Assembly (NCBI GenBank): GCA_947378615.1
Contig: CANCKV010000202.1
Location: forward strand, 1-6,369
Length of the DNA: 6,369 bases
Source of the DNA: Chitinophagaceae bacterium
Lineage (GTDB): Bacteria > Bacteroidota > Bacteroidia > Chitinophagales > Chitinophagaceae
Direction of reading: 5' to 3'
Position numbers and translations under genes: made by a program. The notes under the pieces were generated by a model. It did not search any database. It was given only the letters and a program-made list of their open reading frames with translations, and was not told the DNA's origin. Shown in pieces: positions 167 to 6,369 of this stretch. The number at the start of each line of letters is the position of its first letter. Position 1 is the first letter of the stretch.

Positions 167-2851
167 ATGCAGCAAACACCCGACATTCAACATAAATTTA
201 CTACATCAATCAATATTATCCGTGATAGTGATAGGAAGATAAGCTATATCCCTACCCCTAATGCAAGTCGGGTTGTCAATCAGTTAGCGAATGACTTCAA
301 GACAGGCATTCGTTCCTTCAGTATCATCGGGTCGTACGGAACAGGAAAGTCGGCTTTTTTGTGGGCATTGCGTCAAACGCTATTAGGAAAGGAAACCTAT
401 TTTGATATTCGCCTACTCGATAACGCCACAATCGACTTCATCAATATCATCGGAGAGTATAAGTCGGTAAAAGAAGTGTTTGCCCACTATTTCAACCTAC
501 CCGATACAACCGACGATTTATCTACAAACATATTTGCCTGTATTACAGAACGCTATCAGCAAACAGCCACTCATCAAACCCCGATATTATTTCTAGTCAT
601 CGATGAGTTTGGTAAGTTTCTCGAATTTGCCGCACATAACGACCCCGAAAAGGAGTTGTATTTCTTGCAGCAGTTAGCCGAGTTTGTCAATAATCCCGAT
701 AATAACATCATCCTCTGCACCACCGTGCATCAGAATTTCGATGCCTACGCTGTCGCCTTAAATCAAGCACAAAAGCAAGAGTGGACAAAGGTAAAAGGTC
801 GTTTCAGAGAAATTACCTTCAATGAACCCGTAGAGCAATTGTTGTTTTTGGCTGCCGAGCATCTGAATAGGAATCCTTCGAGTGGCGGGTATTCCAAATC
901 TATCAAGGAGGCCGTCAAGCTATTAACCACTTCAAAGGCATTTAGTTTCAATAGTGAGTACATCAATGAAATTGCCGAAAAGTTGTTTCCCCTCGATATC
1001 CTTTCTGCTTTTACCCTAACCCTTTCCCTACAGAAATACGGACAGAATGAGCGTTCTCTTTTCTCCTTCTTAGAATCTACCGACCATACAGGATTGTCTC
1101 AACACCTTGATTCAAAGAAAGGGCTCTACACGATTGCCGATGTTTATGACTATCTTATCTACAACTTTTATTCTCTCCTAAATTCAAAGTACAATACCGA
1201 TTTCATTGCATGGAAATCCATTAAAAGTGCTTTAGATAGGATAGAAACCTCTTTCGAGGAGAATATTGTAGAATATACCAAGATTGTCAAGGTGATAGGC
1301 TTATTGAATATAAATACGATTGCAGGTTCAAGACTCGATGATGTTTTCTTAACCCATTATCTAAAGCAATGCGTAGGCATTTCTAATGCTGATTCATTGA
1401 TTAAGGCACTTGAAAAGAAGGGAATTATTCTATATAGAAACTATAATAAGCGTTTCGTACTCTTCGAAGGAACCGATATAGATATTGATGATGAAATAGA
1501 AAAGGCAGGAAGTGCAATTGATGGAATCATTGATATTGTTACCTTATTAAAAAGATACTATGAACTTCCTCCGATTGTTGCAAAGAGGGCGATGTTCGAA
1601 AAAGGCACGCCACGTCTCTTTGAATATAGAATCTCTAATGAGCCAATCAATGACATTCCGCAAGATGAGATTGATGGTTTTGTCAACTTGATTTTCAATG
1701 AAAATGACAGCTTGAACGAAGTCATCGAGCATTCAAAAAACAATGAAGAGGCTATCTTATATTGTTATTATACCGATGCAAAGGCGATTAAGGACCTATT
1801 GTTTGAGATAGAAAAGGTGCAACATGTAATTGAAAACTTCTTTGATGACAAAATCGCTGTCCGAGAGCTCAACAATATCTTATTAGATTATAAGGAACAA
1901 CTAAACGATAAAATCCTAAATAACTTTTACGGTTCCGAAACAGAGGTAGTTTGGTATTTCAGAGGGCAACAATTAACTATCAACAATAAAAAGGAGTTTA
2001 ATAGAACCCTCTCTAGCATTTCCGAAATAGTGTATCCCTATGCCCCTTCCTTCAATAATGAGTTGGTCAATAAGCATAAGATTTCTCCTTCTATACATAC
2101 CGCAAAGCGTAATTATTTTAGGGCATTAGTAGATTCGTGGGATGAACCCGACTTAGGATTTGACCCTGCTAGATTTCCGCCCGAAAAAACTATCTACATT
2201 ACCCTATTAAAGGAGAATGGAATTGATTTATATACCGATACTAATAATAAAGAGATTGAAGTAGATGAAAATTCTTCCTTCAAGCATCTTTGGAATCAAT
2301 CAATCGAGATTCTCGAGAGTACAAAGCACGGCAGAAAATCTGTCGCCACTTTTATTGAGCAACTCTCAAAACGCCCTTTCAAATTAAAGCAAGGGGTGAT
2401 TGATTTTTGGGTGGCGTCTTTCTTATTCATCAAGAGGAATGATTATGCCTTATTTGGTGCGAGTGGATATATCCCCTACCTAACGGATGAAATCATCGAA
2501 TTAGTCATGAAATATCCGCAAGACTACGACGTGAAGGCCTTAGAAATTGAAGGAGTGAAATTGGATATCTCCAATATTTATCGTCAATTTCTCAATCAGG
2601 CTGAACAATCAAAAATGAGCAATCAATTGTTCATCGAAACAATTAAGCCGTTCCTTTCTTTTTATGGTTCGCTCACCGAATATGCAAAAAATACAAAACG
2701 ATTAGCAAAAGAAACAATCTCCCTGCGTGACGCTATTTCTAAATCTTTAGACCCTGAAAAGACCTTCTTCGAGGACTTTCCAAATGCCTTAGGCTATTCA
2801 ATCGAATCCTTACAACAATCGAAGACTGATTTTCAGATTTGTCTAAATTAG
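167..2851 (+). CDS. BrxC/PglY-like P-loop ATPase, N-terminal part
   Basis: This is a large AAA-type ATPase, probably the NTP-driven motor or regulator of the defence operon. Counting from the ATG at 167, the product is 894 aa. Walker A is GSYGTGKS at residues 55-62. Walker B is LFLVIDEFGK at 141-150, with D146 and E147. A sensor-1-like strand (IILCTTVHQNF, 181-191) is followed by VKGRFREITFNEP (209-221), whose GRF arginine could act in trans as an arginine finger. The remaining 650 or so residues are mostly predicted helical and match nothing I can name. The layout recalls BREX BrxC/PglY ATPases, but this is resemblance by eye. A TTG at 137 would add ten residues; I prefer the ATG because TTG starts are rare in Bacteroidota and that TTG lies inside the -7 box. 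The frame ends at a TAG that probably interrupts a longer protein. Confidence 0.65.
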   Translation: MQQTPDIQHKFTTSINIIRDSDRKISYIPTPNASRVVNQLANDFKTGIRSFSIIGSYGTGKSAFLWALRQTLLGKETYFDIRLLDNATIDFINIIGEYKSVKEVFAHYFNLPDTTDDLSTNIFACITERYQQTATHQTPILFLVIDEFGKFLEFAAHNDPEKELYFLQQLAEFVNNPDNNIILCTTVHQNFDAYAVALNQAQKQEWTKVKGRFREITFNEPVEQLLFLAAEHLNRNPSSGGYSKSIKEAVKLLTTSKAFSFNSEYINEIAEKLFPLDILSAFTLTLSLQKYGQNERSLFSFLESTDHTGLSQHLDSKKGLYTIADVYDYLIYNFYSLLNSKYNTDFIAWKSIKSALDRIETSFEENIVEYTKIVKVIGLLNINTIAGSRLDDVFLTHYLKQCVGISNADSLIKALEKKGIILYRNYNKRFVLFEGTDIDIDDEIEKAGSAIDGIIDIVTLLKRYYELPPIVAKRAMFEKGTPRLFEYRISNEPINDIPQDEIDGFVNLIFNENDSLNEVIEHSKNNEEAILYCYYTDAKAIKDLLFEIEKVQHVIENFFDDKIAVRELNNILLDYKEQLNDKILNNFYGSETEVVWYFRGQQLTINNKKEFNRTLSSISEIVYPYAPSFNNELVNKHKISPSIHTAKRNYFRALVDSWDEPDLGFDPARFPPEKTIYITLLKENGIDLYTDTNNKEIEVDENSSFKHLWNQSIEILESTKHGRKSVATFIEQLSKRPFKLKQGVIDFWVASFLFIKRNDYALFGASGYIPYLTDEIIELVMKYPQDYDVKALEIEGVKLDISNIYRQFLNQAEQSKMSNQLFIETIKPFLSFYGSLTEYAKNTKRLAKETISLRDAISKSLDPEKTFFEDFPNALGYSIESLQQSKTDFQICLN

Positions 2852-2896
2852 TTGTAAGAGGCAATACGAAAATTAAGAACTTGTCAGGATAGTTTA

Positions 2897-3373
2897 GTGG
2901 AGCGATTTGAGAGTTTCATCAATACAGAATTTATTGGCGAACAAGTCAATTTCGAAGATTATAAAACTATTCTACAAAACCGTTTTAAAAAGCTAAAAAA
3001 GCATCTTTGTTTACCCATTCAAAAAACATTTATACAGCGGCTCGATTCGCAGTTAGATGATAAAAATGCTTGGCTAAATTCTATTTCTCAATCTGTTGTC
3101 GGCAAACCCCTCAATAACTTTAAGGACGAAGATGAATTTGCACTTTACGATAAATTCAAGACTTTAATCAGCGATTTAGATAGTCTTACCAATCTATCGG
3201 AGGAAGATGTAAATGAGGAAACAGAAGAGGTTTTTGGTATAGAATTCAGTTCCTTTTCGGAAGGAATCAAAAAAAGCTTTATCCGATTACCTAAAGCGAA
3301 AAGTTTTGAGGCAAACTCAATGCAGGTCAATATCAAAAAGTCACTTACTAAGGATAAAACACTATTATTGTAG
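2897..3373 (+). CDS. detached C-terminal part of the ATPase
   Basis: This 158-aa reading frame is most likely the tail of the upstream ATPase rather than an independent gene. It lies in exactly the same frame, 45 bp after the preceding stop. Its first start is a GTG with no ribosome binding site, and the frame encodes plausible helical sequence (EAIRKLRTCQDSLVERF) before that GTG, back to the TAA at 2855. The product is charged and helical, with a stretch of basic residues near the start (RFKKLKKH) and an acidic segment in the middle (SEEDVNEETEEV). It has no catalytic motif I recognise. It stops abruptly at KDKTLLL, followed by a second in-frame stop. The -1 frame gives a better ending that couples to the next gene. 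If expressed separately it could still be a partner of the N-terminal piece, but I consider that less likely. Confidence 0.55.
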   Translation: MERFESFINTEFIGEQVNFEDYKTILQNRFKKLKKHLCLPIQKTFIQRLDSQLDDKNAWLNSISQSVVGKPLNNFKDEDEFALYDKFKTLISDLDSLTNLSEEDVNEETEEVFGIEFSSFSEGIKKSFIRLPKAKSFEANSMQVNIKKSLTKDKTLLL

Positions 3374-3406
3374 TAATCACGAACGTTTTAAAAGAATTAT
3401 TAAATA

Positions 3407-4513
3407 ATGAGTAAAGTCAGGCATGTTTTAGGAATATCAGGAGGTAAGGACAGTGCCGCTTTAGCCATCTATATGAAAGACCACTACCCTCATCTAGATA
3501 TTGAATACTACACTTGTGATACGGGTAAGGAATTAGAAGAAACCTATCAGTTAATCACTAATCTAGAAATTTACTTAGGCAAAAAGATTACACTACTAAG
3601 GGCAGCTGAAGGAAGTAATGAAGACCCTTTTGAGCATTATCTTAAATTATACGGAGGCTATATTCCTTCATCAACAGCAAGGTGGTGTACCAAAAAACTC
3701 AAGCTTGAACCCTTCGAAAGATTTGTAGGCGATGAGCCTGTTATCTCCTATGTAGGTATCAGAGGTGATGAAGACAGGGAAGGATATATTTCTAAAAAGA
3801 CAACCATTCAGAGCATATTTCCCTTTCGGAAAAATATATGGAGCGAGGATGTCATTAATAAGGTATTGAGCAATAGCAATAGTAGTCAGGTGATTAGTCT
3901 GTATGAATCTTTGGAGAAAAAGAAATTGAAGAGTCATTTCCTCGATTTATTAAAACATCCGATTACCCCTAATTTCACACAAACACAAAAGTTAAACCTA
4001 TTATTAGATACAAGCATTTCCGAATTCAATGCAATTGTTTTTGCCTACCTCAAAACAACAAATTATCCCTTAGCAAACGAGGAAAACTTTGAATTGATTG
4101 ATAATGAAGAAGTCTTAGTAAGGGCTGATATCTTTAGAATCCTCGAAGAAAGTGGTGTAGGTGTACCTGCCTACTACAAGGAAATTGGCTTTGAAGTCAA
4201 TGACAAGAAGGGTACTTATGCCCGCAGCCGTTCAGGTTGTTATTTCTGTTTCTTTCAACAAAAGATAGAGTGGGTGTGGCTTTACGAACAACATCCCGAC
4301 CGCTATTCAAAAGCGATGGAATATGAAAAAGATGGTTTCACTTGGAATCAAGATGAAACGCTTGCAGATTTGATTAAACCAAAAAGAATACTGTTTATCA
4401 AAGAAGATAATATGAAACGAAAAGCAAATAAAATTAGTAGGACTAAATCACCCTATCTCATAGATATTCTGGAAGATTCTGAAGAGGATGGATGTGCAAG
4501 CTGCTTTATTTAA
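3407..4513 (+). CDS. DndC-like PP-loop enzyme (PAPS reductase superfamily)
   Basis: This 368-aa protein belongs to the ATP-pyrophosphatase/PAPS reductase superfamily, which activates substrates by adenylation; in Dnd systems the relative DndC takes part in putting sulfur into the DNA backbone. The PP-loop SGGKDS is at residues 11-16. Other family-like blocks are YYTCDTGKE (35-42), ARWCTKKLKLEPF (91-103) and YVGIRGDEDREGY (115-127). A segment of roughly 100 residues follows (about 143-245), before GVPAYYKEIGF and the cysteine motif SGCYFC with C278 and C281. Further cysteines are C37, C94 and a terminal CxxC pair, C363 and C366, two residues from the end. These could bind an Fe-S cluster, as DndC does, or carry persulfide. 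It is longer than CysH-type reductases, and no sulfate assimilation genes lie nearby, so a defence role is far more likely. The ATG overlaps the repaired ATPase stop. The substrate is unknown. Confidence 0.85.
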   Translation: MSKVRHVLGISGGKDSAALAIYMKDHYPHLDIEYYTCDTGKELEETYQLITNLEIYLGKKITLLRAAEGSNEDPFEHYLKLYGGYIPSSTARWCTKKLKLEPFERFVGDEPVISYVGIRGDEDREGYISKKTTIQSIFPFRKNIWSEDVINKVLSNSNSSQVISLYESLEKKKLKSHFLDLLKHPITPNFTQTQKLNLLLDTSISEFNAIVFAYLKTTNYPLANEENFELIDNEEVLVRADIFRILEESGVGVPAYYKEIGFEVNDKKGTYARSRSGCYFCFFQQKIEWVWLYEQHPDRYSKAMEYEKDGFTWNQDETLADLIKPKRILFIKEDNMKRKANKISRTKSPYLIDILEDSEEDGCASCFI

Positions 4514-4539
4514 TAAATCAACAGATAAAAAATAACGAT

Positions 4540-5664
4540 ATGCAATTACCTTATCATGACAAACTTGACATTTCTAAATTAACTGCTGTATTTTCAGATG
4601 TACAAAAATCGTATAAGTTTTATTGGTTTCTATCCATTTTAGACATACTTCAAGAAAGTGAACTTACACTTATTCCAATTAATGACATATTATTAAGGAT
4701 GGTAGCTCATGTTTGGTATCCCTTGGACTATTATAAATTATCTTTTGGTAAAAAAGATAGATTCAAAAATATAGCTCACTTTATTACAGGTAAGATTTAT
4801 ATAGATAATAATCCCAATTCTCCTTCTCTGATAGAACAGATAAAATCAAAACTCCCATCGGAAGAACAAAATTCATTAAATGCAAGAGTGGAAACGTTGA
4901 TTAATTATGTTCCTTATCGCTTTTTACGTCCTTTCTTTTCAGAAGAAACAAGTGGAATTTTAGACACGCTAGTCAATAATAAGATAAAAGGTCTTCTTGA
5001 ACAATATTTTCATAGTTCACCCGAAAGAGTTATTTACAAATTTGTTGACAAGGGAAACCTTAAATTCATTGAAGTCAATCCTATTTGGAGGGATTATCTT
5101 AATAAACACCAAGGAATATTAAGAGGATTTATTAATTGGCATTTATTAAAGTTTGTGCAAAAAAACAATCCAAATGTAATTGGACTATCTGAAAAACTTA
5201 ATAAACCTATTAAAAGAGATTTGTCAGATGCAAGTAAGTTTTGGAAAGAATATATTAGAGATGAAAATACACATATTCAATGTATTTATTCTGGTCAAGA
5301 AATAACATTGGCTAATTTAAGTTTAGACCATTTTCTTCCTTGGTCTTTAGTTGCTCACGATTTAGTTTGGAATATCATTCCCACTCCAAAAAGTATTAAT
5401 TCATCTAAAAGTGATAAGATACCTTCGGTTGATTTATATCTTAATCAATTTATCAAGTTGCAATTTGATGCATTTAAGTTTCATTCAGAAAGGGGGGCAA
5501 CTGCTTTGTTAGAAGATTACAGTCAGATTTTCGGACAAACGACTGATGAGATAATTATGAAACCGTATGAAACATTTAATGAAGAATTATCCAAGATAGT
5601 TTTGCCACAAATACAAACTGCGAGGAATATGGGGTTTGATTATCCATTTATCTACAAAATATAA
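4540..5664 (+). CDS. HNH endonuclease
   Basis: This 374-aa protein is probably a metal-dependent DNA endonuclease and the likely cutting effector of the operon. The HNH fold is in the C-terminal third: IQCIYSGQEIT (246-256), then SLDHFLPWS (261-269) with catalytic-type D263 and H264, WNIIP (277-281) with N278, and NSSKSD (287-292). Only one cysteine (C248) stands where many HNH proteins have CxxC, so the structural zinc site may be absent. Residues 1-240 are helical and of unknown function; the opening (MQLPYHDKLDISKL, then YKFYWFLSIL) resembles a recurrent Bacteroidota HNH family as I remember it. I see no recognisable sulfur-binding domain. The ATG at 4540 lies 26 bp after the previous stop; an in-frame ATG at 4492 would add 16 residues and overlap the upstream gene, and I judge it less likely. 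The coding sequence is clearly more AT-rich than the ATPase gene. Confidence 0.85.
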   Translation: MQLPYHDKLDISKLTAVFSDVQKSYKFYWFLSILDILQESELTLIPINDILLRMVAHVWYPLDYYKLSFGKKDRFKNIAHFITGKIYIDNNPNSPSLIEQIKSKLPSEEQNSLNARVETLINYVPYRFLRPFFSEETSGILDTLVNNKIKGLLEQYFHSSPERVIYKFVDKGNLKFIEVNPIWRDYLNKHQGILRGFINWHLLKFVQKNNPNVIGLSEKLNKPIKRDLSDASKFWKEYIRDENTHIQCIYSGQEITLANLSLDHFLPWSLVAHDLVWNIIPTPKSINSSKSDKIPSVDLYLNQFIKLQFDAFKFHSERGATALLEDYSQIFGQTTDEIIMKPYETFNEELSKIVLPQIQTARNMGFDYPFIYKI

Positions 5665-5667
5665 GCA

Positions 5668-6210
5668 ATGCAAAATGAGATTAAAATTAGTAAATTTTTA
5701 AGTTTAATACTACGTCATAACCCAAATAAGATTGGAATAACTCTCGACGAAAATGGATGGGTAAAGGTTGATATTCTATTAGAAAATCTAAAAAAAGCCA
5801 ATGTCTATTTATCATTCGATGAACTTAAAGAATTGGTTGAAAATAACAATAAGAAAAGATTTGCTTTTGATGGTGATTTCAAAAAGATTAGAGCTAGCCA
5901 AGGGCATTCACTGGAAATAGATTTAGATTATCAAGAACAAAAACCTCCAGACATTCTTTTTCATGGAACATCTACAGAACATCTGAAATTAATCAGGTCG
6001 CAAGGACTAAATAAAATGAAAAGACACCATGTTCATTTAAGTCAAGACGAAACCACTGCATTGCAAGTTGGGAAAAGACATGGAACTCCTATCATTTTAA
6101 AAGTCAATTCGATTGGTATGTTTAATGATGGATTTGCATTTTATCTTTCGGAAAATAATGTTTGGCTAACAGAGTTTGTACCAATTAAATATCTACAAAT
6201 CGATGATTAA
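5668..6210 (+). CDS. kptA: RNA 2'-phosphotransferase, Tpt1/KptA family
   Basis: This 180-aa protein is a full-length Tpt1/KptA enzyme. The family uses NAD+ to remove an internal 2'-phosphate from RNA through an ADP-ribosylated intermediate. Family motifs are all present: SKFLSLILRHNP (8-19), LDENGWVKVDILL (26-38), KKRFAFDGDFKKIRASQGHS (62-81), FHGT (98-101), HVHLSQDETTALQVGKRHGTP (121-141) and FYLSENNVWLTEFVP (158-172). The catalytic tetrad known in yeast (Arg-His-Arg-Arg) maps to R16, H17, R75 and R137, so it should be active. Bacteria do not normally splice tRNA by the route that makes 2'-phosphates, so its cellular substrate is unclear. Some Tpt1 enzymes can also ADP-ribosylate 5'-phosphate ends of RNA or DNA. 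It starts 3 bp after the HNH gene, shares its AT-rich composition, and its stop overlaps the next start (ATGATTAA), implying co-translation. Confidence 0.95.
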   Translation: MQNEIKISKFLSLILRHNPNKIGITLDENGWVKVDILLENLKKANVYLSFDELKELVENNNKKRFAFDGDFKKIRASQGHSLEIDLDYQEQKPPDILFHGTSTEHLKLIRSQGLNKMKRHHVHLSQDETTALQVGKRHGTPIILKVNSIGMFNDGFAFYLSENNVWLTEFVPIKYLQIDD

Positions 6211-6369
6211 GAATCTATACAGTCACCTCACTGCCAAAGAAAGGGATAGCCTTTCATTCCCTGCAAGAATATTGTTGGAGAGAAACCTGATTAAAGGAGA
6301 AGTCCTCGATTTTGGTTGTGGCTTAGGCAAGGATGTAGAATTACTCAATGCCAAAGGAATCCATATTGT
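6203..6369 (+). CDS. class I SAM-dependent methyltransferase (5' part only)
   Basis: The first 55 residues of a gene that continues beyond the window. Residues 34-42 are VLDFGCGLG, the glycine-rich SAM-binding motif I of Rossmann-fold methyltransferases, followed by KDVELLNAKGI, where an acidic residue binding the SAM ribose would come shortly after. The preceding block, LSFPARILLERNLI (17-30), resembles the opening of the family annotated as DNA phosphorothioation-associated putative methyltransferase, which would fit the DndC-like gene upstream. That match is from memory of the family pattern and covers only the N-terminus. The ATG overlaps the Tpt1 stop by eight bases, so it is almost certainly in the same operon. 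The sampled base composition returns to that of the earlier genes. The substrate (DNA, RNA, protein or small molecule) cannot be told. Confidence 0.8.
   Translation, partial: MIKNLYSHLTAKERDSLSFPARILLERNLIKGEVLDFGCGLGKDVELLNAKGIHI

Follow-up and report, generated by a model that had tools for sequence, protein, structure and literature searches.

The closest described relatives of the locus reported here are the phosphorothioate (PT) systems SspABCD–SspE and SspABCD–SspFGH, together with type 4 BREX, which has related ATPase, PAPS-reductase and DUF4007 genes. Sections of two articles report nucleases, HNH among them, in the surroundings of Dnd and BREX, and count type 4 BREX among the PT systems (PMC10853773, PMC12839542). 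The PT-dependent type IV restriction endonucleases ScoMcrA and Hga combine a reader domain with HNH, and KptA/Tpt1 is an RNA 2′-phosphotransferase. We analysed a stretch of 6,369 nucleotides, referred to as the window, from a Chitinophagaceae bacterium (contig CANCKV010000202.1; G000:C202:1-6369), whose assembly is 67.7% complete in 590 contigs. Labels beginning with L, G and P denote stretches, genomes and proteins in this analysis. With the Ssp systems the window shares SspC and SspD, identified with PADLOC models, in the order sspC–sspD, and its relatives have sspB in front. It departs from SspABCD–SspE in carrying HNH, KptA and methyltransferase (MT) genes behind sspD and an interrupted sspC; SspA and SspB were not seen on the contig (its own genome was not searched for SspA). 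Unlike type 4 BREX, the contig has neither PglZ nor BrxL. Our preferred interpretation, put forward tentatively, is that the contig holds the interrupted sspC and the sspD of an Ssp-type operon, followed in the effector slot by HNH, KptA and MT genes, and that the HNH protein is likely to be a nuclease that senses PT by means of a predicted sulfur-binding-like domain, and is probably independent of the writer next to it.

The window contains six open reading frames (ORFs) of five gene types, all on the + strand and spaced by 45, 33, 26, 3 and −8 bases. The first encodes the N-terminal 894 amino acids of an SspC-like AAA+ ATPase (167–2851 from the ATG; the frame is open from a TTG at 137, giving an ORF of 137–2851) and ends at an in-frame stop. 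It scored 1226.8 bits against the PADLOC SspC model PDLC02776 (profile positions 1–871) and 238.6 bits against the BrxC model PDLC02478, and contains Walker A and Walker B motifs. The following 158-amino-acid ORF (2897–3373), in the same frame, was ruled out as a gene of its own, as it matches PDLC02776 positions 892–1038 (4.5e-47). Two stop codons thus separate the N-terminal part of SspC from its C-terminal piece. Among the matches listed, 117 of 120 SspC relatives are 1069–1077 amino acids long. The identical 894-residue SspC is present in the protein database from three contigs, not necessarily independent, and the break is therefore either real or common to assemblies of one population. 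The writer of the window is probably inactive.

The next gene (3407–4513) encodes a PP-loop, PAPS-reductase-like protein of 368 amino acids that matches the SspD model PDLC02782 in two stretches (1.1e-91) and PF01507 (1.2e-5), with SGGKDS at residue 11 and cysteines at 278, 281, 363 and 366. It gave no match to PDB sequences at 0.01. The two-stretch match and late cysteine pairs appear to recall the extra domain and cysteine-rich region noted, in a section of one article, in type 4 BREX and in some SspD proteins (PMC12839542). Against DndC (TIGR03183) it scored 16.8 bits, below the cut-off of 290.4. An initial annotation of this DNA had described five tightly packed genes on one strand, forming a PT-type operon whose ATPase is BrxC-like and not SMC-like. 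Profile matches and short spacings agree with both points, and the five gene types stand, with the correction that the C-terminus of the interrupted SspC had been missed. Its idea of an undescribed DndC-like writer does not hold: searches of defence models identify the ATPase as SspC and the PP-loop protein as SspD far better than as DndC, and relatives carry an ordinary sspB–sspC–sspD. The contig begins 166 bases before sspC, and DUF4007 (SspB) and BrxL were not found in the window's own, incomplete genome. Genes beyond the window could not be read, because its edges were taken as contig ends.

Relatives of the window SspD (56–73% identity) occur in 15 other genomes among 298 of the order. 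The surroundings of sspD were fetched for 14 of these, the fifteenth, G240, being that of L087. In 13 of the 15, sspB, sspC (open frames of 1066–1094 amino acids) and sspD form one operon; L148 has a rearranged locus, and L087 has HNH, MT and sspD genes without sspB or sspC in the fetched stretch. A further complete sspBCD in L129, from the genome of L004, brings the intact operons to 14, and in none of them does an HNH gene stand behind sspD. The genes behind sspD vary from genome to genome (L135–L147). Some encode proteins of 768–797 amino acids whose N-terminal parts match either the follower gene of L129 or SspE of L130 (2e-294), which lies directly after sspD. In L144 an MT–HIT protein without HNH is found two ORFs further on. 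Judged from this variety of genes, the position after sspD is apparently an exchangeable effector slot. In the window the visible stretch downstream of sspD is filled by HNH, KptA and MT genes, and none of the six ORFs scanned with PADLOC models matched SspE or SspFGH. Adjoining the complete sspBCD of L129 (13914–18999) are genes resembling PbeA and PbeC, together with a partial ORF similar to SspA/DndA.

The HNH gene (4540–5664) encodes a protein of 374 amino acids (PF13395, 2.4e-9) with a helical N-terminal domain, predicted to be sulfur-binding-like, and a Cas9-type HNH domain. Two structural models had predicted local distance difference test scores of 95.4 and 95.7, and H264, N278 and N287 are invariant in 56 of 56 family members. 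The N-terminal domain has conserved YK and YP positions, and sulfur-binding domains are among its structural comparison rows; from these models we infer that it may be a sulfur-binding-like domain that binds PT DNA. This reader-plus-HNH architecture would resemble that of ScoMcrA and Hga, to which the structural match is weak; the window protein differs in its Cas9-type HNH, the lack of a significant sequence match, and its HIT, MT and KptA partners.

An alignment search for the HNH family gave 67 loci in named genomes, and the family was also found in 13 of the 298 genomes of the order. In viral contigs a single-sequence search found no relatives and an alignment search found three loci, one matching near full length at 33%. 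HNH has an adjoining MT–HIT fusion or HIT protein in 27 of the 67, and most of these loci are without ssp genes. The full order sspC–sspD–HNH–KptA–MT was seen once more, in L036 (Arsenicibacter rosenii), where only the C-terminal part of sspC is present. A BREX-4-like setting is found in L006, where SspB, SspC, HNH, KptA and MT–HIT are followed by PglZ and BrxL; L006 is counted as MT–HIT only through L099, a contig of the same genome that carries the other half of kptA and probably continues it, so this adjacency is inferred. The cassette likewise stands beside PglZ and BrxL in L008, L026 and L070.

PT genes or fragments, of very different PT types, were present in the fetched flanks of 26 of the 67 loci, and 40 had none of the searched PT genes, SspA/DndA or PglZ there. 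No DUF4007 match was found in 16 of 18 genomes selected because their HNH loci mostly stand alone (among the 18, an SspD end is present at the locus of L020, an SspB fragment at that of L004, and MT–HIT is lacking in L028 and L033), and no DndC match in 16 of 17 such genomes. In the closest pair without DUF4007 or DndC, L007 (Runella aurantiaca) and L010, the nonsynonymous (dN) and synonymous (dS) distances were 0.060 and 0.57 in HNH, and in MT–HIT 0.043 and 0.64, so both genes are under purifying selection; in all further pairs dS exceeded 1 or was saturated. The HNH protein is probably independent of marking genes of its own, since relatives of its cassette are maintained where no such genes were detected.

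Where HNH and MT–HIT do adjoin ssp genes, the local writer is broken or incomplete in all 12 loci, the window with its stop codons included. SspB is cut in L004, and SspC is cut after model position 74 in L012, 96 in L026, 276 in L011, 410 in L039, 514 in L008 and 718 in L070; the N-terminus of SspC is missing in L036, SspD is missing beside full SspB and SspC in L006 and L085, and both SspB and SspC are missing in L087. The MT genes of L039 and of the window are themselves cut by the sequence end. A search at E≤1e-20 gave no SspD for the genomes of L006, L008, L011, L012, L026, L039 and L070, and the L085 genome, G128, is outside the 16 SspD-positive genomes of the order; the first of these searches overlooked edge fragments in L020 and L041, and therefore may miss fragments or distant forms. 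In the truncated loci, the sequence after MT showed no remainder of sspC, and a simple insertion of HNH–MT into sspC was rejected on this ground.

In contrast, where HNH occurs without MT–HIT, the writer is broken in 2 of 12 loci (L022, L101) and no visible writer gene is broken in the other ten (L014, L017, L021, L023, L030, L038, L044, L049, L056 and L100, the last being Hymenobacter yonginensis with an intact sspBCD). The fetched stretch does not take in the whole writer in L017, L021 and L023 (SspD is present in the genomes of L017 and L021; that of L023 was not searched), and DndC of L030 is cut by the locus edge. The difference between 12/12 and 2/12 (Fisher, 6.7e-5) was calculated after the pattern had been seen and ignores kinship. 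The comparison excludes L020, L041, L045, L063 and L102, in which a contig end cuts the relevant gene, and L019, L066 and L067, which have DndFGH or SspH alone. Where sspD is in the operon, SspC is intact in 0 of 3 loci with the HNH cassette and in 14 of 15 without it (Fisher, 0.005; likewise post hoc and ignoring kinship); the SspD match of L140 spans positions 3–228 of 275. Gene contexts differ between L026 and L049, close neighbours in a quickly built tree with long branches.

We take the HNH protein as a likely PT reader and cutter, a view that the PT neighbourhoods, the occurrence without a detectable writer and the adjacent broken writers all fit. Its N-terminal domain would bind PT DNA and the protein would cut it, by analogy with ScoMcrA, an enzyme of type IV. 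A writer that actively places the matching mark would then be harmful beside HNH, which would explain the loss of writers. MT–HIT and KptA would probably process nucleic-acid ends or nucleotide adducts around the cleavage. Sulfur-binding domains are described, in part of one study, as reading sulfur in a sequence-dependent manner (PMC7470945), and such reading would let HNH proteins without MT–HIT tolerate writers. If HNH reads PT, it adds a reader class missed by sequence models, the dismantling of writers where the cassette is present becomes a genomic signature of conflict between PT writer and reader, and Tpt1/KptA, usually seen as RNA repair, is placed in a DNA-targeting cassette with a HIT domain often lacking its middle histidine. 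A more far-reaching proposal, which we consider rather doubtful, is that a new class of PT-reading nucleases, with a divergent sulfur-binding domain, a Cas9-type HNH and HIT or MT–HIT and at times KptA, takes over the effector slot of Ssp and BREX-4 operons, whose writers disappear because the nuclease cleaves PT DNA, and persists as a stand-alone guard against PT-marked invaders, its NAD+- and AMP-handling partners acting on the cut ends.

Several observations weigh against PT reading by a writer-independent cassette. The resemblance to sulfur-binding domains is weak: Foldseek gave no match at E≤0.001 (for the whole HNH protein nothing below E 0.018, with Cas9 chains as the best rows), ORC winged helices scored nearly as high as sulfur-binding domains (5.6–6.1), and profile comparison with sulfur-binding domains did not reach significance (P 0.013 and 0.04, with probabilities of 3.3 and 1.3%; the best of 12 controls gave 0.056). 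A search of PDB sequences with the N-terminal profile returned just two chance-level rows. The ten loci with unbroken visible writer genes also count on this side, as does the complete sspBCD on another contig of the L004 genome, which refutes the idea that the cassette and a writer are mutually exclusive. In the window itself, the HIT part of the MT gene lies beyond the visible sequence. Finally, HNH or HIT genes also adjoin helicase and Druantia-like genes.

The last point suits an alternative in which HNH and HIT, one a nuclease and the other handling nucleotides, act as a pair added to many defence systems, without reading sulfur: neighbours include Schlafen-type and DUF3427 helicases, Druantia-like and BREX genes, and 40 loci lack the searched genes in their flanks. 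We think this unlikely; the 26 loci with PT genes of very different types, the conserved YK and YP positions and the structural rows of sulfur-binding domains speak against it. Less probable still is a replacement of SspE, in which a functional Ssp system would have HNH as its PT-activated effector, and HNH, together with the PT that SspBCD writes, would damage unmarked invading DNA as SspE does. HNH lies directly behind sspD, the position of SspE in L130, and the ten loci with unbroken writer genes would agree; the interrupted sspC of the window, the 12 of 12 broken or incomplete writers and the cassettes whose genomes have no detectable DUF4007 or DndC would not. The interrupted sspC and these last cassettes, with the purifying selection on one such pair, leave the initial proposal that HNH cuts unmarked invaders unsupported, because such an enzyme needs its own modification, yet cassettes occur without a detectable writer. 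It is very improbable that the locus in its entirety is a defence operon in decay, with a cassette that has lost its function here: the two stops in sspC, the truncated sspB or sspC of L004, L008, L011, L012, L022, L026, L036, L039, L070 and pSYSM and a KptA remnant in L009 point that way, but sspD, hnh and kptA of the window are open with their expected catalytic residues, and HNH and MT–HIT are under purifying selection in another genome pair.

The KptA gene of the window (5668–6210; 180 amino acids; PF01885, 1e-53) confirms that the RNA-repair enzyme noted in the initial annotation is embedded in the operon, with an unusual nuclease alongside. It is a full-length family member that keeps the expected Arg-His-Arg-Arg (R16, H17, R64, R119), but it lies inside a nuclease cassette. 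R16, H17 and R64 are the active-site residues named for RslTpt1 in a section of PMC6333775, and R119 was assigned through its CthTpt1 equivalent Arg121. KptA-like enzymes are able to ADP-ribosylate 5′-phosphate ends, according to part of PMC11833690. KptA was found in 11 of 42 genomes searched, inside the cassette in L006/L099, L013 and L036, about 0.7 kb away in L050 and about 5 kb away in L031; it is a recurrent but rare member of the cassette. Tpt1 is named in the main text of neither PMC10853773 nor PMC12839542, and KptA not in that of PMC10853773 (PMC12839542 was not searched for it). Among the papers listed for KptA/Tpt1 or HIT with phosphorothioation, none combined the two subjects and no description of the HNH–KptA–MT cassette was found, supplements being outside the scope.

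The last gene (6203–6369) is the start of an S-adenosylmethionine-dependent MT (PF13489, 0.0018) cut by the contig end. Against TIGR04096 (cut-off 150) this fragment scored 32.7 bits and the full relatives of L004 and L036 61.6 bits; in L004, L036 and L099 the MT is fused to a HIT domain. The remainder of the window gene was not found in its own genome, and a HIT gene at the start of C539 (34% identity, query residues 176–277) was not shown to be its continuation. Among the MT–HIT homologues listed (P0241–P0360), a set biased to the clade of the query, 111 of 120 lack the histidine in the middle of the HIT triad, with Ser, Thr, Gly, Asn, Ala, Cys, Arg or Val in its place, and nine keep it. An active HIT hydrolase in every member was rejected for this reason, though the histidine is kept in Chloroflexi loci. 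The window fragment is nearest (72–75%) to P0331, P0335, P0340 and others, and these three keep the middle histidine.

Some further neighbours of the HNH family were recorded. An SLFN-g3 helicase stands beside it in L089, L091 and L027, a PLD or DUF3427 helicase in L064, L065 and L089, and DruF/DruL-like genes in L088. In L040 (3088–4062) a family member is directly followed by an HNH protein with a sulfur-binding domain (8h0l, 5.2e-8; NF045808, 100 bits, below the cut-off of 180). In L101 (Synechocystis sp. PCC 6803 pSYSM, 2780–10855), DUF4007, an SspC truncated at position 526 of the 942 in the model, an HNH-family gene and a cysteine desulfurase lie in a row, which also holds a LAGLIDADG gene on the opposite strand; a gene annotated as a PT-associated methyltransferase is found further along. 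Large ORFs lie between MT–HIT and PglZ in L008 (14554–17892), L070 (9206–12802) and L099 (1539–3479), with no Pfam match at 0.01; the longer ORF, that of L070, gave a weak match to LmuB (2.6e-4).

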